Position numbers and translations under genes: made by a program. This document shows, piece after piece, positions 51,643 to 61,618 of a stretch of DNA of 64,000 bases. The notes beneath the pieces are model-generated. The model made no database searches. It was not told where the DNA came from and was given only the letters and a program-made list of their open reading frames with translations. Each line of letters begins with the position of its first letter. The stretch's first letter is position 1. This DNA is from Desulfobulbaceae bacterium (lineage in GTDB: Bacteria > Desulfobacterota > Desulfobulbia > Desulfobulbales > Desulfocapsaceae), in NCBI GenBank assembly GCA_024640625.1, contig JAHEER010000001.1, positions 110,317-174,316 on the forward strand. The letters are read 5' to 3'.

Positions 51643-52515
51643 ATGGAAGCCACGACCAGTACTTTTTCCCCCCCATCCCACCTGATTGCAGAAATTGACC
51701 CGCCCAAAGGAACTAATCTAGACACCTTTCTTGACAAGGCTCTGAAAATCAGGGGCCGGGTGGCGCGCGTCAGAGTAACCGACAACGAGCATGCCATTCT
51801 GCACATGTCACCACTGGCGCCGTGCCTGGCGCTTAAAGAGAAGGGTGTTGAACCAAGCATGGTAATCAACGGCCGGGACCGCAACCGGCTGTCGTTCCAG
51901 GGGGACTTGCTGTGCGCCGCGACGATGGGAATCAACGACGTCGTTCTCAAGGAGGGCCACGACCCCAAAGAGGGAGACCAGCCCATGGCCAGAACGAGCG
52001 GTGATCTGGACCTGGAAACCATGCTGACCTGCGTTTCCTCGATGAATGATGGCAAGGATCTGGCCGGAGAGGAGTTGGATGGAGGGACCAACTTCAACAT
52101 CGGCGTCTATATTGAACTCTCAGATGATGTCAATTTCAACCGGGAGCGGGCCGAATATTTCCTGAAACTACAAGAATTCGGGGTACAGTCTGTGACCCTG
52201 GGGCCCACCTACGATCTCAATATCGTTGAACAATTCCAGCCTTTTGCCGAGCAGACCGGGATAAAGCTCTACAGTTCACTGATGTTTTTAAAATCGGTGA
52301 CCATGATCCGTTATCTCAACAATCTGCCTGGCGTCCCCTCCATTCCCCAGGAGTTTCTGAAAAAAATGATGGGGGCGACGGACAAGAAAAATGCCGGCAT
52401 GGAAGTTGCCGCCGATTTTCTCAAGGAACTGGTCCCTATCAGTGACGGTGTCGTGCTGCTTTCCTTAGGGCTGCATGACAAGATGACCGACTTTCTCGAC
52501 CTCATTGAACGATAG
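51643..52515 (+). CDS. Divergent methylene-tetrahydrofolate reductase-like protein
   Basis: The 290-residue protein is a MetF-fold TIM-barrel relative. It shares a frame of motifs with the MetF at 60264: EIDPPKG (there ECGPPRG), VARVRVTDNEHAILHMS (there VDACNVTDNQTSVVRMS) and NGRDRNRLSFQGDLL (there VRDRNRIALQSDLL). The loop LSGDH of true MetF reads LKEGHDP here, so the folate/flavin site is altered. GAGGAGG precedes the ATG. As first gene of the HDR operon it may be a second reductase subunit, a regulator or an enzyme for another one-carbon carrier. The function is open. Confidence 0.75.
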   Translation: MEATTSTFSPPSHLIAEIDPPKGTNLDTFLDKALKIRGRVARVRVTDNEHAILHMSPLAPCLALKEKGVEPSMVINGRDRNRLSFQGDLLCAATMGINDVVLKEGHDPKEGDQPMARTSGDLDLETMLTCVSSMNDGKDLAGEELDGGTNFNIGVYIELSDDVNFNRERAEYFLKLQEFGVQSVTLGPTYDLNIVEQFQPFAEQTGIKLYSSLMFLKSVTMIRYLNNLPGVPSIPQEFLKKMMGATDKKNAGMEVAADFLKELVPISDGVVLLSLGLHDKMTDFLDLIER

Positions 52516-52521
52516 CGAAAC

Positions 52522-54108
52522 GTGCTGAAGAGCGACGACGAAAGATCTCCCCTGCGCAAGACTCTGCCGGAGGTAACAAATGAGCTCGGGTCTCACCTCT
52601 ATCTCTACCAGATTCTTGAGGAAACGCCCAATGGTGTGATGGTGGTCAGCCTCGATCATCAGGTGCTTTATGCCAACCCGGCGGCCAACCAGCTGCTCGG
52701 AGTCGGCTATAGGGAACTGACGGATATCGGCCTGGAACGACTGCTGGGTGAGGAGAATCAGTGGTTCTTCTACCAGATCGGCCAGTTTTTCGACAATCTG
52801 GCGGAGATGGACAGGACGAAAATACGGCACGAAATAGAGATCACCACCGGTGAAAATCAGAGAAAGATCCTCGACGCGGTCCTCATCTATCCCCCTTCCT
52901 CGCCCGCCTATTACCTGATGTATCTTATTGACATCACCCAGCGCAAGAAACTGGAGGGTGAGCTGCGCAGACGCAATACTTTTTTCAACAATCTGATTAA
53001 CTCATCGGTTGACGGCATCATTGCCGCCGATATGAACGGCAAGCTGATTCTCTTCAACGACGCTGCGCTGACGCTGCTTGGCTACCACGATGACGCCAGC
53101 CTTGAACGACTGCATGTAACCAGCCTCTACCACGACGGGCTGGCCTACGAGATAATCAAACGGATGCGCAGCGATGAGTTTGGCGGCAAGGGCAAACTCC
53201 TTTATCACGAGCTCAGCGTCCGGCACAAGGACGGTCATGAGATACCGGTAAGGTTTGCCGGCGGCATCATCTACGACAAGGACAAGGAGATCGCCACCTT
53301 TGGAATTTTCACCGATCTGCGTGACATCATCAAGATCGAGAAGGATCTCGAACAGACCCACAATATGCTCATGCAGTCTGAGAAGATGGCGGGTCTGGGC
53401 AGGCTGGCGGCCGGCGTCGCGCATGAAATCAACAACCCGATGTCGGGCATCATGCTCTATGCCAATCTGATCAGGGAAGAACTCGGCGAAGACCATAGCG
53501 TGTCCCCCGATCTGGAAACCATCATCAATGAGGCCGAGCGCTGCAAGGTGATCGTCGCCGACCTGCTCGAATTTTCCCACCAGACCAGGTACGAGATGGA
53601 ACCCATCGACATCAACGAGGTGGTTCAGAAGACCCTGGGAATCTTGAGCAACCAGCCGCTCTATCACAATATCAAATTCAACCTCAACCTGGCTGCAGAA
53701 CTGCCTCCCATTCTGGGTAATTCGATCCGGCTCAACCAGGTGATTATGAATCTCATGGTCAATGCCGCCCAGGCAATGAAAGGTGAGGGTACCATAAGCA
53801 TTACCAGCAGGGCTCGGGCCGGAAACGACATCAACGAAATTCTGATCAGCGACACCGGTCCGGGTATTGAGGAGGAATTGAAGGAAAAGATTTTTGAACC
53901 GTTTTTCACCACCAAAACCACCGGCGAAGGAACCGGCCTCGGGCTATCGGTTTCCTACGCCATTGTCAAAGAACACCAGGGAACCATCAAGGTGAGTTCC
54001 GGTCCCGGAAAAGGGGCGCTGTTCACCCTGAGATTTCCCGCCGTTGTGGACACCTTGAAAGGAGAGCACCATGAGCAACACACAGATCTCACCGCAGCAG
54101 GGGAATAA
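52522..54108 (+). CDS. PAS-PAS sensor histidine kinase
   Basis: The 528-residue soluble kinase starts at GTG 52522, six bases after the MTHFR-like stop. It has PAS domains at about 25-140 and 150-275, a HisKA domain with the phosphoacceptor H301 in [12 protein letters not shown], and a HATPase domain with N-box [23 protein letters not shown] and [12 protein letters not shown]. No membrane helix is seen, so it senses an internal signal, possibly redox or energy state, through the PAS domains. Its last 38 bases overlap hdrC, which places it firmly within the metabolic operon. The response regulators at 61232 and 61708 are likely partners. Confidence 0.92.
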
Positions 54109-54634
54109 AAAGTTTCTCCTAAAACTCGAGGAAAGGGGCGTTGATGTCCAGGCCTGCTACCAGTGCGGGCGCTGCTCGGCGGGGTGTCCGATCACTGAAT
54201 TCTTCGACCTGACCACCATGGAGGTGGTCAGGTTAGCCGCCTACGGCATGGAGGAAATGCTTCTCGACTCCAAGGCCATCTGGCTTTGCGCCGCCTGCGA
54301 GACCTGCGCCACCCGCTGCCCCAACGATATCGAGATTGCCGTGTTGATGGATGTGCTGCGCGAGCTGGCTCTAAGGAAAGGAGTAACGCCGGCTGAACCG
54401 AGAATCCCCACCTTTCATCAATGTTTTCTGGGATCCATCGAGCACTGGGGTCGAGCCTTTGAAGTGGGCCTGATTGCAGGCTACAAGATGCGTTCGGGGG
54501 ATTTTACCGGCGACATGAAACTGGGTATGAAAATGTTTAGCAAAGGAAAGTTAAGCCTCAAGCCCCACCCCATTAAGGGCAAAGCGGAGATCAAACAGAT
54601 CTTTTCGGGGAAAGGCAAGGAGTATGAGCGATGA
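54071..54634 (+). CDS. hdrC: Heterodisulfide reductase subunit C-like protein
   Basis: The 187-residue protein has two [4Fe-4S] motifs, CYQCGRCSAGCP near residue 29 and CAACETCATRCPNDIE near residue 75, with the HdrC spacing and no membrane helices, so it is the soluble type. It relays electrons between HdrA and HdrB. AAGGAGA precedes the ATG inside the end of the kinase gene, and the stop overlaps hdrB by four bases. Confidence 0.93.
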   Translation: MSNTQISPQQGNKKFLLKLEERGVDVQACYQCGRCSAGCPITEFFDLTTMEVVRLAAYGMEEMLLDSKAIWLCAACETCATRCPNDIEIAVLMDVLRELALRKGVTPAEPRIPTFHQCFLGSIEHWGRAFEVGLIAGYKMRSGDFTGDMKLGMKMFSKGKLSLKPHPIKGKAEIKQIFSGKGKEYER

Positions 54635-55494
54635 AACTATCCTACTATCCTGGCTGTTCGCTGCACGGCACCGCACTCGACTACGACCACTCGGTGAAGG
54701 AGGTGTGCGCCGCGCTGGGGATCGAGCTGGTGGAGATCCCTGACTGGAACTGCTGTGGCGCTTCCTCGGCCCATATGACCAATCATGAGATAGGCATCCG
54801 GCTGCCGATGCGCAACCTGCTGCTGGCCGCCGAACTCGGACATGATGTCCTGGTGCCCTGTGCTGCCTGTTTTCAGAGGCTCAAAGCCGCCGAGAGGAGT
54901 CTCAGGGAGGAACCCGAGTATTGGGATATCCAGGGGTATCCTGAAAATATACACATCGTGCACATCTCCTCGCTGCTGTCCGAAGACGGGGTGCTCGACA
55001 AGATCAGGGAAAAGATCCAGGTCCGCTTCGAAGGCTTGAAACTGGCGTGTTATTACGGCTGCCTTTCCCTGCGTCACCCCAAAACCACCGAAGTGATCAA
55101 TTACGAACAGCCCCGCACCCTGGAGGCCATTGTCACCAGCGTCGGCGCCCAGCCGGTTTCCTGGTCCCACCGAACCGAATGCTGCTCCGGTTCGCTGACC
55201 ATGGCCCGGCCCGATATCGCCCGCACGCTGGTTGCGGATATCGTCGAGGCCGCCAAAAGAGCAGGTGCAGACGGGATGGTAACCGATTGTCCCATGTGTC
55301 AGGCAAACGTTGAAAGCCGGCAGCTCGACCTGGGCGGTGAAGATTATCTGCCCGTCTTTTTCGGCACCGAACTGATCAGTGCCGCCTTGAGTGCGCAGTA
55401 CCCGGCCAAACAGAAGAAGCTACATCTGGTGGATGCCTCCGTGTTAGATGATGTCCTGAGAAGCGCCCCCCAGTGCAGGGAGGAAACCGTATGA
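54631..55494 (+). CDS. hdrB: Heterodisulfide reductase subunit B-like protein
   Basis: The 287-residue protein carries two CCG domains: YYPGCSLHG with NCCGASSAH and PCAACFQR, then CYYGCLSLRHP with ECCSGSLTM and CPMCQANV. These cysteine sets bind the pair of noncubane [4Fe-4S] clusters of HdrB. In methanogens this site reduces CoM-S-S-CoB; in acetogens and sulfate reducers the substrate differs or the subunit passes electrons to MetFV. It overlaps hdrC and hdrA by four bases each. Confidence 0.94.
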   Translation: MKLSYYPGCSLHGTALDYDHSVKEVCAALGIELVEIPDWNCCGASSAHMTNHEIGIRLPMRNLLLAAELGHDVLVPCAACFQRLKAAERSLREEPEYWDIQGYPENIHIVHISSLLSEDGVLDKIREKIQVRFEGLKLACYYGCLSLRHPKTTEVINYEQPRTLEAIVTSVGAQPVSWSHRTECCSGSLTMARPDIARTLVADIVEAAKRAGADGMVTDCPMCQANVESRQLDLGGEDYLPVFFGTELISAALSAQYPAKQKKLHLVDASVLDDVLRSAPQCREETV

Positions 55495-58400
55495 CTCAAA
55501 ATCCTCAAATTGAATTGTCCCCCGCATCCACCGGTGCGGTGATGGTTGTCGGCGGCGGCATCAGTGGTATGCAGTCGGCCCTTGATCTGGCAAATTCGGG
55601 TTTCAAGGTCTATCTGGTCGAGAGTTCGCCGGCCATCGGCGGCAAGATGGCCCAGCTCGACAAGACGTTCCCCACCAACGACTGCTCAATGTGTATCGTC
55701 TCGCCGAAACTGGTCGAGGTCGGGCGCCATCGCAATATCGAATTGCTCACCCACAGTGATGTCGCTGCGCTGGAGGGGGAAGCGGGCAACTTTACCGCCC
55801 GGATTACCCAGCATGCACGCTATGTCGATGTCGACAAATGCACCGGTTGCGGTCTCTGCGAGCTGGTCTGTCCGGTAACCCAGATTTCCTGGTGGCCCGA
55901 GCAGCCGGAGGAAGGGGAGAAGAAGAAAAAACTCAAGGCCAAGAACAAACGGCTGATCAGCGGTCCAGGGACGCCGCAGCCGACCAGGCTGGCAAAATGG
56001 ACGTTCACGGTCGACGAGGAGAAATGTTCCAAGTGCGGCAGCTGCCATCGTGCCTGCCTGCATGGTGCGGTGGCCTGGCAGAAGAAGGAGATCGCTGCGA
56101 TCGACCAGGAGAAATGCACCGGGTGCGGGGCCTGCTATGTCGCCTGTCCGGAAAAATTTCAGGCGGTCACCATCAGCGAGGCTGAAGAACTTGAAAAAAA
56201 CCTCGGCACTGCCATCAGGGCCCGCTCAGACGAAATCAAGAAAGTGCAGGGGGAGGTTCAGAGCCCGTCAGACTGTATCCGCTGCGGACTCTGTGCGCTG
56301 ATGTGCACCAAGGTTATGGGCATCGGAGCTCTGAAAATGGTAGACGGCGGCATCGAGGCCGGAATCGATATCTGCCAGGTCTGTGGTGCCTGCGCCTCAG
56401 TCTGCCCGGTCAATTTTCTCGATGTCTCCGAGCTCACCGACAAGACGCCCCGACCGCTGCTCGACGGGTTCAACGAAGGGCTCAACTCGCGCAAGCCGGT
56501 CAATATATTTTATCCCCAGGCAGTACCCCGGGTGCCGGTCATCGACGAGGCCAGCTGCGTCAGACTCAATACCGGCGAGTGCGGCACCTGTCAGGCGGTC
56601 TGCGGCGTGGGAGCCATCGACTACACCCACACGGTCAAAGAAAAAGAGATAGAGATCGGCTCGGTGATTTTTTCGCCGGGCATCGAAGTGTTCGACCCAG
56701 CCATCCGCGGCGAGTTCGGCTACGGCCTCCACCAGAACGTGGTGACCTCCATCGAGTTTGAACGTCTACTTTCGGCTTCGGGTCCCACTTCGGGAACGGT
56801 GTCGCGCCCCGGTGACGGCAAGCATCCCCGCAAAATTGCCTGGATCCAGTGTGTTGGTTCCCGGGATAACAGCTGCGGCCGTGATTATTGTTCGTCGGTC
56901 TGCTGCATGTATGCCACCAAGGAGGCCTATATTGCCAGGGAGCATGACTCCTCGATCGAGCCAACGATTTTTTATATCGACATGCGTTCGTTCGGTAAAA
57001 ACTTCGATACCTATATCACCCGGGCAGAAGACCATAATGTCCGTTATGTCAGGGCGATGATCAGCAGGATTTATGAGGATCCCCAGACTGGGGACCTGGA
57101 GCTCCGCTATATTGACGATCAGGGTGAGCGACAGTCGGAGATATTTGAGATGGTGGTGCTTTCGGTCGGCATCCAGGTCGCCGAGCGGACACAAAAACTG
57201 GCTCAGACCCTGGACATCGACATGGATGCCTACGGCTTCGCAATAACCGACGGCTTTCGACCGATGGCCGCCTCGCGACCCGGAGTCTATGTGAGCGGCG
57301 CCTTCAACGGGCCCAAGGACATCCCGGAGACGGTGAGTGAGGCCTCCGGCGCCGCCCAGGCCGCCTCGGTGGGCCTGGCCGCAGCCCGAAACACCCTGCT
57401 CAGCGAAGAGGTGCTGCCGCAGGAGAAGGTAGAGGAGCCCGGCGATCCGCTGAGGATTGGCGTCTTCGTCTGCCATTGCGGCTCCAACATTGCCTCGGTG
57501 GTTGACGTGGCGGCGGTTACAGAATATGCGGCGACATTGCCCAACGTGGTGTTCGCCGACCATCCCCTCTACACCTGTTCTCAAGATTCGGTCGAAACGA
57601 TCAAGGACCTGATCAAGGAGCATGATCTCAACCGGGTGGTGGTCTCCGCCTGTTCACCATCCACCCACGAACCGCTGTTCATGTCGACGCTGCAGCAGGC
57701 GGGCATCAACAAGTATTTTTTCGACATGGCCAATATCCGCGATCAGTGCAGCTGGGTGCATCCGCTAGAACCGGAAAAGGCTACCGAGAAGGCCAAGCGG
57801 CTGATGCGCATGGCCGTTGCCAATGTTTCCCAGGCAGAGCCACTCACGGAACTCGAGTTCGATGTCGATTCCACCCTGCTGATCATCGGCGGCGGAGTGG
57901 CTGGCATGACTTCGGCGGTTGAAGCGGCCGGCCAGGGGTTTGGCGTCTATCTGGTGGAGCAGGAAGCGGAGCTCGGCGGTCAGGTCAACCGGCTGAAACG
58001 AAGCTGGGACGGCCAGGATTTCGGGCCCTTCCTCGATGATCTCAAAGCCCAGGTCGAGGCCGACCAGAATATACGGGTCCTGACCAGCTCGGTGGTAGTG
58101 GATCAGGGCGGCTTCGTCGGCTCCTTTGAGAGCGAAGTGATGACGCCCACCGGGGGCAGCAGAAAGATCAAACACGGTGCCACTCTGGTCGCCACCGGCG
58201 CCGAAGAATACCGGCCGGACCTCTATGGTCTCAATGAGTTCGACAGCGTGTTGAGTCAGACCGATTTTGAGACCCTGATCGTCGACGACCCGGAGCGGGC
58301 CGCCGCCTGCAATTCAGTGGTCATGCTGCAGTGTGCCGGGTCGCGCTGCGAAGAGCATCTGAGCTATTGTTCGAGGATCTGCTGCAACCAGGCAGTCAAA

Positions 58401-59144
58401 AACAGTCTCAGGATTAAAGAAATCAACCCCGAGGCCCGAGTCGATGTACTCTACCGTGATATGCGCTGCTACGGCCTGACCGAGTTGGACTACCGCAGGG
58501 CCCGGCAGGCGGGGGTCAATTTTATCCGCTTCGACCCGGCGCGGGCACCAGTGATACAAACCAGCGAAGATACTATCGGGGTGACGGTATTCGATCCTTC
58601 TATCCGGATGGAGGTGCAGCTCAATCCCGATCTGCTGGTGCTGTCCACCGGTATCGTACCGAGAGATACGGAAGAATTGGCGACCATGCTGCGGGTACCG
58701 AGGAACGACAACGGCTTTTTCATCGAGGCCCACGCCAAGCTCCGGCCGGTGGATCTGGCCAGCGAAGGGATTTTCATGGCCGGAACCGCCCATGGCCCTA
58801 AAAATGTCAGTGAGACCATAGCCCAGGCCCAGGCTGCAGTGGGTCGGGCGGCCACCATTCTGGCCAATGAAAAACTGAAGCTCTCGGGCGTGTTCTCCAC
58901 CGTCATACCTGAAAACTGTGCAGTCTGTCTGACCTGCGTCCGGGCCTGTCCTTACGGGGTGCCGGTAATCAACGAAGAACATACTGCCTTCATCAATCCG
59001 GCACTGTGCCAGGGCTGCGGCATCTGCGTCGCCGAATGCCCAGCCAAAACCATCACCCTGGGGCGCTTCCAGGATGAAAACATCAATGCCAAGTTGAAAT
59101 CGTATGGTGAAATGGAACCCGTAGCAGAGACAGGAGGAGCGTGA
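55491..59144 (+). CDS. hdrA: Giant HdrA-like electron-bifurcating flavoprotein with two FAD modules
   Basis: The 1217-residue protein is about twice a canonical HdrA. The first FAD module starts at VVGGGISGMQSAL (residue 19) with NDCSMCIVSPKL (Cys65, Cys68). Ferredoxin-type motifs follow near residues 117, 180, 209, 262 and 295, then CVGSRDNSCGRDYCSSVCC near 455. A second FAD module starts near residue 800 (IIGGGVAGMTSAVEAAG) with CAGSRCEEHLSYCSRICC near 948. Two C-terminal [4Fe-4S] motifs (CAVCLTCVRACP, CQGCGICVAECP) end the chain. It should be the bifurcating flavin hub linking MvhD, HdrBC and MetFV. GGGAGG precedes the ATG at 55491. Confidence 0.93.
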   Translation: MTQNPQIELSPASTGAVMVVGGGISGMQSALDLANSGFKVYLVESSPAIGGKMAQLDKTFPTNDCSMCIVSPKLVEVGRHRNIELLTHSDVAALEGEAGNFTARITQHARYVDVDKCTGCGLCELVCPVTQISWWPEQPEEGEKKKKLKAKNKRLISGPGTPQPTRLAKWTFTVDEEKCSKCGSCHRACLHGAVAWQKKEIAAIDQEKCTGCGACYVACPEKFQAVTISEAEELEKNLGTAIRARSDEIKKVQGEVQSPSDCIRCGLCALMCTKVMGIGALKMVDGGIEAGIDICQVCGACASVCPVNFLDVSELTDKTPRPLLDGFNEGLNSRKPVNIFYPQAVPRVPVIDEASCVRLNTGECGTCQAVCGVGAIDYTHTVKEKEIEIGSVIFSPGIEVFDPAIRGEFGYGLHQNVVTSIEFERLLSASGPTSGTVSRPGDGKHPRKIAWIQCVGSRDNSCGRDYCSSVCCMYATKEAYIAREHDSSIEPTIFYIDMRSFGKNFDTYITRAEDHNVRYVRAMISRIYEDPQTGDLELRYIDDQGERQSEIFEMVVLSVGIQVAERTQKLAQTLDIDMDAYGFAITDGFRPMAASRPGVYVSGAFNGPKDIPETVSEASGAAQAASVGLAAARNTLLSEEVLPQEKVEEPGDPLRIGVFVCHCGSNIASVVDVAAVTEYAATLPNVVFADHPLYTCSQDSVETIKDLIKEHDLNRVVVSACSPSTHEPLFMSTLQQAGINKYFFDMANIRDQCSWVHPLEPEKATEKAKRLMRMAVANVSQAEPLTELEFDVDSTLLIIGGGVAGMTSAVEAAGQGFGVYLVEQEAELGGQVNRLKRSWDGQDFGPFLDDLKAQVEADQNIRVLTSSVVVDQGGFVGSFESEVMTPTGGSRKIKHGATLVATGAEEYRPDLYGLNEFDSVLSQTDFETLIVDDPERAAACNSVVMLQCAGSRCEEHLSYCSRICCNQAVKNSLRIKEINPEARVDVLYRDMRCYGLTELDYRRARQAGVNFIRFDPARAPVIQTSEDTIGVTVFDPSIRMEVQLNPDLLVLSTGIVPRDTEELATMLRVPRNDNGFFIEAHAKLRPVDLASEGIFMAGTAHGPKNVSETIAQAQAAVGRAATILANEKLKLSGVFSTVIPENCAVCLTCVRACPYGVPVINEEHTAFINPALCQGCGICVAECPAKTITLGRFQDENINAKLKSYGEMEPVAETGGA

Positions 59145-59602
59145 TGGGTGATTTCAGCGCCAGTGTAATCGTCTTTGCCTGCCGGCACTGAGCCTATACT
59201 GCAGCGGACCTGGCAGGTTCGGAAAGACGTTCCTATCCACCCTCGATCAGTATTGTGATGCTGCCGTGTACGGGAAGGATAGATGAATCATTGTTGCTCA
59301 AGGCATTCGAGAACGGGGCTGACGGTGTTATGGTCATCGGCTGTCTCGAAGGCGATTGCCATTACGTCAACGGCAACATCCGCGCACGAGCCCGGGTGGA
59401 GCGGGTATATAACATTCTCGAACAGATCAATATCGGGCCGGAGCGAATCCGGATGTATAACCTGAGCGCCGGCGAGGGGGCCAAGTTTGCCGCCTTTACC
59501 AATGAGTTCGTCGGTCGGGTGGAGGAACTCGGGCCGAGTCCGATAAATCTGGCCAGAAGCAACGGATCAAAGGAGTCAGAACAGGAGGTGCAAGCGACAT
59601 GA
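59144..59602 (+). CDS. mvhD: MvhD (hydrogenase delta/iron-sulfur subunit), selenocysteine-containing
   Basis: Read from the ATG at 59144 with the TGA at 59189-59191 decoded as selenocysteine, the product is 152 residues with Sec16 in FACRH-U-AYTAADLAG. Both sides are MvhD: VIVFAC before, then RIDESLLLKAFENGADGVMVIGC and EGDCHYVNGN after, and SAGEGAKFAAF near the end. In the family this position is usually Cys or Ser after CxH/CxW. A bSECIS-like hairpin follows the TGA at proper distance. MvhD binds a [2Fe-2S] cluster and brings electrons to HdrA. It overlaps hdrA by one base and metV by four. Conventional gene callers would truncate it to the ATG/GTG after the TGA. Confidence 0.9.
59189..59221 (+). 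promoter_or_regulatory. bSECIS-like element after the mvhD UGA
   Basis: CGGACCT (59205-59211) pairs with AGGTTCG (59215-59221) with one G-U pair; the apical loop is GGC, beginning with the two guanines favoured for SelB binding. The loop lies 20 nt after the UGA, within the usual 16-37 nt window. The stem overlaps codons for conserved residues (ADLAGS), as expected for an internal bacterial SECIS. Confidence 0.75.
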
Positions 59603-60264
59603 TTACCGGAACTCCCAAACCCATCGAGGAAATCCTGGAGATGGTCGAGCCCTACGATAATATCATCGTGGCCGGCTGCTTTGGTTGTGTAACAGTATGC
59701 CGGGTAGGAGGCGACAAAGAGGTCCAGGTGCTCTCTTCGACCCTGCGACTCGCCCGTGAGGCGGCTGGCAAGAAAATCGAGATCCGCGAGGTCTGTCTCG
59801 AGCGCCAATGCGATCCCGAATATCTGGAACCGATGCGTCCCTATATTGAGGATTACCAGGCGGTTCTGTCAATTGCCTGCGGTGCCGGGATTCAGTTTAT
59901 GGCCGAAAAGTTCACTAAAACTCCGCTACTGCCGGGAATCAATACCGGATTTTTAGGGGTCACCGAACGACAGGGGGAGTGGACCGAGCGTTGCCAGGGC
60001 TGTGGTGATTGCGTGCTGCATCTGACCGGGGGGATCTGCCCGGTCACCCGCTGTGCCAAATCAATATTTCACGGCCCTTGCGGCGGATCGGTTCAGGGAA
60101 TCTGCGAGGTGGACAAGGAGGTCAAGTGCGGCTGGCAGTTGATCATTGACCGGCTCGTCAGTCTTGAGCAGATGGAAAACTATGGGAAACTCAAGCCGTA
60201 TAAGGGCTGGGATACATCACGAGATGGCGGCCCCCGGCGCATTATCAGGGAGGATATGGTGTAA
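59599..60264 (+). CDS. metV: MetV-like zinc/iron-sulfur partner of MetF
   Basis: The 221-residue protein is the MTHFR C-terminal-domain type (MetV): AGCFGCVTVCRVGGDKEV near residue 26, VLSIACGAGIQ near 90, GFLGV, and the cysteine-rich segment CQGCGDCVLHLTGGICPVTRC near 133 followed by GPCGGSVQGICEV. Family knowledge: MetV joins MetF in acetogenic and related methylene-tetrahydrofolate reductases and carries Zn and Fe-S centres. GGAGG precedes the ATG, which overlaps the mvhD stop by four bases, and its stop overlaps the metF ATG by one. Confidence 0.92.
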   Translation: MITGTPKPIEEILEMVEPYDNIIVAGCFGCVTVCRVGGDKEVQVLSSTLRLAREAAGKKIEIREVCLERQCDPEYLEPMRPYIEDYQAVLSIACGAGIQFMAEKFTKTPLLPGINTGFLGVTERQGEWTERCQGCGDCVLHLTGGICPVTRCAKSIFHGPCGGSVQGICEVDKEVKCGWQLIIDRLVSLEQMENYGKLKPYKGWDTSRDGGPRRIIREDMV

Positions 60265-61193
60265 TGAAAGCAGGAAGCAATCTTGAGAGAGTGCTGGAAG
60301 CCGGACATTTTGCCGTTACCGCTGAATGCGGACCTCCCCGGGGGGCCGATGCGGACAAGGTTCTGAAAAAAGCTGAACTGGTCAAAGGCAACGTCGACGC
60401 CTGCAACGTCACTGACAATCAGACCTCGGTGGTTCGCATGAGCTCAGTTGCCGGCTGTATGCTCGTCCAGCAGAGCGGCACCGAGCCGTTGCTGCAGATG
60501 GTGGTCAGGGACCGTAATCGGATCGCCCTGCAGTCCGATCTGCTCGGGGCGTCTGCTCTGGGAGTCAGAAATTTACTCTGTCTCTCCGGCGACCATCAGA
60601 AATTCGGCGATGATCCCCAGGCCAAGAACGTTTTCGACATCGACTCGATCCAGCTCATCCACATGGTTAAGACCATGCGGGACGAAGGGGTGTTTCCTTC
60701 CGGTGACAAGCTGGATGGCGCGCCAAAGTTTTATATCGGCTGCGCTATAAACCCCTTTGCCGATCCGTTTGAAATACGGGTGCCCAGATTCAAGCTCAAG
60801 ATCGAGGCCGGTGCTGATTTCGTACAGACCCAGTGCATCTATAACATGGATAAGTTCAAGCGATTTATGGAGGATGCCAGAAAAGAGGGGCTCCATGAGA
60901 GAACCAAGATTCTGGCCGGGGTCACCCCGCTGAAATCGGCCGGTATGGCCAAATTCATGAACCGGATGGTGGCCGGCATCGAGATTCCCGAGGAGTTCAT
61001 CAAGCGCATCGCCGATGAGCCCAAGGAAAAGCAGGCGGCCAAGGGTATTGAGATGTGCATCGAACAGATCCAGGAAATAAAAGAAATGGAAGGTATCGCA
61101 GGTGTACATGTGATGGCAATCGAGTGGGAAGAAAAGCTTAACGAGATCATTGGTGGTGCGGGCTTGCTGCCCCGACCGATGGTCGAACAATAA
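60264..61193 (+). CDS. metF: Methylene-tetrahydrofolate reductase
   Basis: The 309-residue TIM-barrel flavoprotein has the MetF motifs VTAECGPPRGAD near residue 13, MVVRDRNRIALQSDLLGA near 75, LCLSGDHQKFGDDPQAKNVFD near 105, and ADFVQTQCIYNMDKF near 190. It reduces methylene-THF to methyl-THF, or runs in reverse during acetate oxidation. It follows metV with one-base overlap and is the last enzyme gene of the operon; the receiver gene begins 38 bases later. Electrons likely come through HdrABC-MvhD and MetV. Confidence 0.94.
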   Translation: MKAGSNLERVLEAGHFAVTAECGPPRGADADKVLKKAELVKGNVDACNVTDNQTSVVRMSSVAGCMLVQQSGTEPLLQMVVRDRNRIALQSDLLGASALGVRNLLCLSGDHQKFGDDPQAKNVFDIDSIQLIHMVKTMRDEGVFPSGDKLDGAPKFYIGCAINPFADPFEIRVPRFKLKIEAGADFVQTQCIYNMDKFKRFMEDARKEGLHERTKILAGVTPLKSAGMAKFMNRMVAGIEIPEEFIKRIADEPKEKQAAKGIEMCIEQIQEIKEMEGIAGVHVMAIEWEEKLNEIIGGAGLLPRPMVEQ

Positions 61194-61231
61194 CGAACAA
61201 ACCTAGCTTTCATGTCTTAAGGAGGACACAG

Positions 61232-61618
61232 ATGGCAGACAAGAAGCTGATCCTTTTGGTAGATGACGATCCTGATTTCGTCGAAGCGGTTCGCGTCATT
61301 GTCGAAAACGGCGGCTACGAGGTCGAGGTCGCATACGACGGCCAGGAAGGACTGGAAGCGGTGGCCGAGCGCAAACCGGATCTAATCGTGCTCGATGTCA
61401 TGATGCCGGTAATGAACGGTCATGAGGCCTGTGCCAAGCTCAAGGGCAGTGAGGAGACGGCGGACATTCCGATTATTCTGCTGACCGCGGTGGCCGACCG
61501 GGTCACCACCTCCACCTATACCCATCGAGATATGCTGGAATCAGAGGCCGAGGACTATATGCCCAAGCCGGTTGAGCCGGGTGAGCTGCTGGAACGAATT
61601 CAAAGCTGGGTAAGCTGA
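61232..61618 (+). CDS. Single-domain response regulator
   Basis: The 128-residue protein is a stand-alone CheY-type receiver: acidic pocket DDD at residues 11-13, phosphoacceptor Asp55 in LIVLDVMMP, a Thr in ILLTAVADR and Lys in MPKPVEP. There is no output domain, so it acts as a phosphorelay carrier or through protein contacts. TAAGGAGG precedes the ATG. It lies 38 bases after metF and 89 before the receiver-kinase, so it is probably part of the same transcript and a partner of the kinases at 52522 and 61708. Confidence 0.94.
   Translation: MADKKLILLVDDDPDFVEAVRVIVENGGYEVEVAYDGQEGLEAVAERKPDLIVLDVMMPVMNGHEACAKLKGSEETADIPIILLTAVADRVTTSTYTHRDMLESEAEDYMPKPVEPGELLERIQSWVS

Follow-up and report, generated by a model that had tools for sequence, protein, structure and literature searches.

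Selenocysteine (Sec) is known in MvhD/FrhD-type proteins of deltaproteobacteria and methanogens, and has been so for deltaproteobacteria since 2006, when 19 bacterial FrhD selenoproteins, eight of them in Syntrophobacter fumaroxidans, were reported (PMC1794560; here and below, the literature is cited from the accessible parts of each source). This agrees with what an earlier sequence-only reading of the present DNA had stated. Four mvhD genes of Desulfobacterium autotrophicum were described in 2009 as encoding selenoproteins (PMC2702500), and a methyl-viologen-reducing hydrogenase was placed among the Sec proteins of a marine deltaproteobacterium (PMC8318568). A 2026 review gives the family entry as CxxU with two Sec residues and records several Sec residues in archaeal FrhD/VhuD (PMC13188914). 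Since Sec-containing FrhD/MvhD proteins are already in print, the mvhD gene described here adds one more well-supported case to a known kind of selenoprotein. MvhD, which has a single [2Fe-2S] cluster, passes electrons to HdrA (PMC12350162, PMC6019823), and a methylene-tetrahydrofolate reductase of composition MetFV-HdrABC-MvhD has been described from Moorella thermoacetica (PMC5861303, PMC5736913, PMC6085437).

The window, i.e. the whole 64,000-nucleotide stretch analysed (G000:C95:110317-174316), is part of a 231-contig draft genome, taken to belong to a sulfate-reducing relative of Desulfofustis and estimated to be 92.4% complete and 2.9% contaminated. Its + strand carries a single locus at 54071-61193 in which hdrC, hdrB, hdrA, mvhD, metV and metF follow one another with overlapping ends. 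An hdrC-like gene (54071..54634, 187 aa, [4Fe-4S] dicluster domains), an hdrB-like gene (54631..55494, 287 aa, CCG domain) and hdrA (55473..59144, 1223 aa, two FAD/Pyr_redox_2 stretches and many Fer4 domains, without an in-frame TGA) precede mvhD (59144..59602, 152 residues, with Sec predicted at residue 16). These are followed by metV (59599..60264, 221 aa, coding for a methylene-tetrahydrofolate reductase C-terminal domain protein) and metF (60264..61193, 309 aa, methylenetetrahydrofolate reductase). With metF, metV, hdrA, hdrB, hdrC and mvhD all within one locus, the region is best described as a MetFV-HdrABC-MvhD (methylene-tetrahydrofolate reductase) gene set, the products of which would be expected to form the corresponding complex. 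The HdrABC partner proposed earlier for MvhD is borne out by the locus in a narrower form, that of a MetFV-linked complex. MetV had no sequence match in the PDB, and Rfam returned a single match over 54000-61500 (E 0.7, far below its gathering score). Further upstream, a 290-aa frame at 51643-52515 appears MetF-like by eye.

Reading frame of mvhD across the in-frame TGA

The mvhD ATG at 59144 overlaps the hdrA stop codon as TGATG and lies 3' of AGGAGG (59132..59137, + strand), recognised by reading as a ribosome-binding-site-like sequence. From this ATG, the frame is broken only by a TGA at 59189-59191 on the + strand, a predicted Sec codon that takes the second Cys position of a CxxC motif as codon 16, and is then open until the stop at 59600-59602, which in turn overlaps the metV ATG at 59599. 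Frame reading thus reproduced the gene outline given by the sequence-only reading, including the normal overlap with the next gene and the peptides FACRH and AYTAADLAG on either side of the TGA.

The read-through product was matched by PF02662 (FlpD/MvhD) across the TGA (161.7 bits, residues 8-130) and aligned without gaps around this codon to MvhD of solved Hdr complexes, which have Cys at the position in three printed alignments out of six matches. An alignment with MvhD homologues, proposed earlier as a check on residue 16, returned Cys in 23/23 full-length database homologues, these being all rows that cover at least 88% of the query among 120 matches listed of 4978 (27 alignment rows, less the query itself and P0002, P0021 and P0121, which start past the site). 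A database built with the standard code cannot hold full-length TGA forms, and these 23 homologues therefore show the residue that replaces Sec, not how frequent Sec is.

Under translation table 11, the sole ORF call was a 115-aa protein starting from GTG 59255, the very product that automated annotation had been expected to report. The nearest database relatives, among the matches listed, are mostly proteins of 113-114 aa with a query coverage of about 73-75%, which argues that MvhD is truncated by gene callers in these organisms as well; the database protein of Desulfofustis glycolicus (120 aa) also starts past the Sec site. Scanned mechanically for further frames that continue through a TGA, the window yielded 31 stretches, several of which stop at the stops of neighbouring genes.

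Taken as a whole, the best explanation, to which we assign a probability of about 0.92, is that TGA 59189 is read as Sec16 to give a 152-residue MvhD with the motif Cys13-x-x-Sec16, that a hairpin at 59205-59221 acts as its SECIS element, and that MvhD is the [2Fe-2S] relay of MetFV-HdrABC-MvhD, with Sec16 at or next to the cluster.

Predicted selenocysteine sites in MvhD proteins and their possible role

Using a fixed motif in which positions 13 and 72 had to be Cys and the ADxAG stretch had to contain L, M or T, and which left out eight known MvhD genes (seven Sec67-only and one with Cys at both sites), we collected 145 distinct MvhD genes: 90 with Sec at residue 16 only, 33 with Sec at residue 67 only, 18 with neither and four with both. 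The sample is skewed to the window type, as one search used peptides of the window and kept 80/102 relatives; the other MvhD loci comprised at least 30 loci of one listing and 40 further stretches picked by choice. A TGA at the codon-16 position was present in 94/145 of these genes, and its recurrence argues that TGA 59189 is not an error for TGC or TGT, an outcome that the sequence-only reading had held to be fatal to its claim. Among 80 named loci, 79 encode an MvhD whose residue-16 codon is TGA, the exception (L187) having Cys. The same TGA is found in Desulfofustis glycolicus DSM 9705 (L150).

Three FlpD genes were found in the genome of the window, each with one TGA, and only the gene in the window has it at residue 16. 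The other two, L022 and L024, carry it at a later site equivalent to residue 67 of the window protein. L024 (G000:C140:20352-20720) represents a second metV- and metF-linked MvhD of this genome, with the motifs CHYC ... GULPGQC, Cys16 and TGA at the residue-67 site. Elsewhere, in L096, L099, L101 and L111, both sites of MvhD carry a TGA (CTWU ... GUHLGEC or GUHLNEC). Tandem arrangements were also seen: in L171:5507-6100 a Sec16 copy precedes a Cys16 copy with drifted hairpin letters, and L110 and L117 each hold a pair of Sec16 copies.

In the proposed mechanism, MvhD would be a [2Fe-2S] relay between HdrA and its partners in MetFV-HdrABC-MvhD. Sec16 would lie at or next to the cluster, most likely as a ligand, and would adjust redox behaviour or resistance to oxidation: a selenolate at this position may shift the redox properties of the cluster if it is a ligand, or may else form a reversible Se-S bond with Cys13. 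The second option is a rival role for the same residue, in which Sec16 is read, is not a cluster ligand, and senses or gates oxidation through the Se-S bond within CxxU. We regard it as a real contender that falls short of even odds. It draws on the presence of Cys or Sec at positions 13, 16, 42, 67 and 72 in 145/145 MvhD genes (13 and 72 having been fixed as Cys by the search motif), which is one position beyond the need of a [2Fe-2S] cluster, on the finding of Sec at 16 or at 67, and on CxxU being a common selenoprotein redox motif (PMC13188914). Against this, MvhD has been described as a one-cluster electron relay, with no mention of thiol chemistry in the accessible text (PMC12350162, PMC6019823). 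Ligands of the MvhD [2Fe-2S] cluster named by residue were not found in the accessible parts of the MvhD literature. Ligation of the cluster by Sec16 is somewhat favoured over the Se-S bond, and Sec16 would presumably tune the redox properties of electron entry.

The Sec site was associated with the neighbouring gene. With a chosen limit of 1.3 kb, metV was found downstream of 81/90 Sec16-only genes (one of the 90 being undecidable because of a contig end), 8/33 Sec67-only genes, 2/18 genes with neither and 0/4 genes with both. Sec16 and metV are strongly but not strictly associated, since in eight Sec16-only genes that lack metV the next gene is hdrC-like (seven) or hdrA-like (one, L116). In an MvhD tree calculated from 125 columns, in which many forks were left open, the eight metV-linked Sec67 genes formed one supported clade (100/98) beside a 91-gene group (88 Sec16 and three Cys), the whole having support of 100/99. 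The placement of this clade makes it likely that the Sec site was switched, or lost and then regained, inside the metV-linked MvhD lineage.

A broader model, which we put forward as tentative and rather doubtful, would have the redox partner determine which of two alternative Cys positions in one [2Fe-2S] relay is occupied by Sec: 16 with MetFV, 67 in most others and both in a few. Paralogous MvhDs in one cell would then give differently tuned electron entry into HdrA, and the site would have switched within the MetV-linked lineage. In the accessible open-licence literature, we found neither Sec16 described as a mark of metV-linked MvhD nor any account of MvhD paralogues in one genome that differ between two Sec sites.

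The hairpin and the probable decoding of the UGA

The predicted SECIS hairpin, CGGACCU-GGC-AGGUUCG (59205..59221, + strand), consists of a 7-bp stem and a GGC loop, with 13 nt from the TGA to the hairpin and 20 nt to the loop, and corresponds to the 7-bp hairpin with a GG loop that had been noticed 13 nt past the TGA. When compared with published limits for bacterial SECIS elements (a stem of 4-16 bp, a loop of 3-9 nt with G in its first two bases, UGA distance 16-37 nt, energy ≤ -7.5; PMC13188914), its stem, loop and distance were within range, and its energy was so only with flanks: -6.9 for the bare 17 nt, which misses the limit, and -8.3 with two flanking bases counted per side. The folding energy of 59186-59240 was no better than that of shuffled sequences (z 0.43, 128/200 shuffles as good), and the minimum free energy structure of 59192-59240 was a different one from the 7-bp hairpin. 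Folding energy of the region is thus uninformative for SECIS, and conservation at synonymous sites was used instead.

The 15-nt core of the hairpin, GCGGACCTGGCAGGT, was present exactly in 85/90 Sec16-only genes vs 0/51 Cys16 genes. Codons +5 to +9 after the TGA were nearly fixed in Sec16-only genes (GCG in 87, GAC in 90, CTG in 90, GCA in 89 and GGT in 87 of 90), whereas the same codons were found in 11, 19, 31, 6 and 18 of 51 Cys16 genes, respectively. Codons +1 to +4 vary freely in Sec16 genes (all four forms at +4, Ala, and both at +2, Tyr), and third-base entropy in these genes drops over codons +5 to +9 only. As these codons are near-fixed in Sec16 and not in Cys16 genes, the protein sequence does not explain the hairpin letters, and the letters at 59205-59221 are, on this comparison, under selection; MvhD genes share kinship, and Fisher tests on the hairpin-letter counts are accordingly non-independent. 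Recurrence of the TGA in 94/145 genes, together with hairpin letters frozen at synonymous sites only in the genes that carry it, indicates that the Sec16 codon is more than chance.

Pairing followed the same division. All seven pairs can form in 57 of the 94 Sec16 genes, six in 28, five in four and two in five; the best among the 51 Cys16 genes was six pairs, in one gene. The five Sec16 genes unable to form the hairpin are the four double-Sec genes and one other, L116 judging by sequence, and would need another element. When the window gene was recoded at random with synonymous codons, all seven pairs were kept in 63/20000 trials if codon usage was taken from the rest of the MvhD genes, and in 801/20000 if the codon pool included the Sec16 stretch. 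Mean pairing probability in a 60-nt context was 0.16 for the window hairpin, and averaged 0.59 for the 94 Sec16 genes (61 of them at ≥ 0.5) and 0.006 for the 51 Cys16 genes.

The UGA at 59189 would be decoded as Sec by SelB and tRNA-Sec under guidance of the hairpin, with Sec expected to be made available and delivered by SelA, SelD, SelB and tRNA-Sec, as is usual in bacteria. A search of the genome for selA, selB, selC and selD, suggested by the sequence-only reading, was answered in part: SelA (598 bits) and SelD (366 bits) are present, and neither SelB (TIGR00475, and a SelB query from a family relative) nor tRNA-Sec was found in this 92%-complete draft assembly. Absence of selABCD, named by that reading as a ground for refutation, thus applies to half of the set as far as this draft goes. 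The weaker SelB-query matches look like other translation GTPases by length, and the below-cut-off tRNA matches were Ser, Leu, Arg and Phe tRNAs. An in-frame TGA in selD (L018:1528-1530), read as U-A-A-K, makes SelD itself a predicted selenoprotein with UxxK, a known SelD motif (PMC13188914).

Across 28 genomes (own and relatives), SelB was over the cut-off in 23 and tRNA-Sec in 23. Both were over the cut-off in 10/10 genomes of named relatives holding a Sec16 gene, the ten having been picked as named strains and at least one of them, Desulfoprunum benzoelyticum, seemingly being in the 28-genome set too by its coordinates. The family-relative query recovered full SelB in Desulfofustis glycolicus (G058, L150). 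Of the same-genus drafts, G001 gave the N-terminal part of SelB where a contig ends and G002 the C-terminal part where one starts, and G003 and G004 gave none; G002 and G004 have an ordinary tRNA-SeC (anticodon tca). Since two of these drafts have SelB only in part, at the edge of a contig, the missing SelB is likely an assembly gap in our draft, and the same is likely of tRNA-Sec. Conservation and Sec machinery together lend strong support to the claim that MvhD is a selenoprotein with a SECIS-like hairpin.

A different decoding would have the UGA read as Cys by a tRNA-Sec-like selC* tRNA-Cys with a UCA anticodon, resulting in an ordinary CxxC MvhD. Systems of this type, with extra selB* and cysS*, are known in Desulfobacterales, and extra tRNA-Sec-like genes occur in some relatives, one of which (L224) was called tRNA-Cys(GCA) by ARAGORN. 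Like the decoding by tRNA-Sec, selC* recoding involves a tRNA-Sec-like tRNA, some forms of which have a UCA anticodon, but it inserts Cys using selB* and cysS* (PMC7609411), whereas no such tRNA was found at E ≤ 1e-7 in our genome, an assembly without ordinary tRNA-Sec too. The ordinary tRNA-SeC (tca) of same-genus G002 and G004, the SelA and TGA-bearing SelD of the genome itself, and the fit of the conserved hairpin to ordinary SelB decoding also speak against Cys insertion, which we consider very improbable here.

The L224 gene (G059:C22:310627-310716) matched the tRNA-Sec model with 58.9 bits, and its assignment by ARAGORN as tRNA-Cys, anticodon GCA, is as expected of a selC* tRNA-Cys. Extra tRNA-Sec-like genes were located near FlpD genes in relatives at G008:C158:64796-64894 (L095), G008:C62:6722-6820 and G026:C104:8240-8328. 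The first lies ~ 90 bp before FlpD, and ARAGORN called no tRNA in L095; that of G026 adjoins a second SelB-like gene (C104:7084-8205). The extra genes of G008 and G026 may be selC*-type tRNAs.

Least credible of all is that the TGA arose by sequencing error or truly terminates a decaying gene, with restart at GTG 59255 to give 115 residues: standard gene calling does yield this 115-aa ORF, but the same TGA occurs in 90 Sec16-only genes of many species, the frame is intact on both sides of it, the hairpin letters are frozen at silent sites and, by reading, no ribosome-binding-site-like sequence lies 5' of 59255. A Sec-to-Cys pseudogene or error was rejected in view of the conservation.

Comparison with described systems

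Decoding of TGA 59189 as Sec16 would extend the occurrence of Sec to the folate-linked HdrA enzymes of sulfate reducers, a branch in which MvhD is reported truncated by gene callers. The natural Cys-only, Sec16, Sec67 and double-Sec MvhDs provide a ready comparison for the role of Sec at an iron-sulfur relay.

The six kinds of gene in the window locus are also those that, gathered at one locus, encode the MetFV-HdrABC-MvhD complex of Moorella thermoacetica. The window differs in the in-frame TGA at residue 16 of MvhD and in an hdrA of 1223 aa; Sec is not mentioned for Moorella in the accessible parts of the reports (PMC5861303, PMC5736913, PMC6085437). With the FrhD/MvhD/VhuD selenoproteins (PF02662) of Deltaproteobacteria and methanogens (PMC1794560, PMC2702500, PMC13188914), the window shares the domain, the UGA as predicted Sec codon, the CxxU motif and the position of the gene beside hdrA. 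As far as the accessible text describes them, these known selenoproteins are hydrogenase- or Hdr-linked, and their family entry is CxxU with two Sec, whereas the predicted partner in the window is MetFV and Sec is predicted at residue 16 alone.
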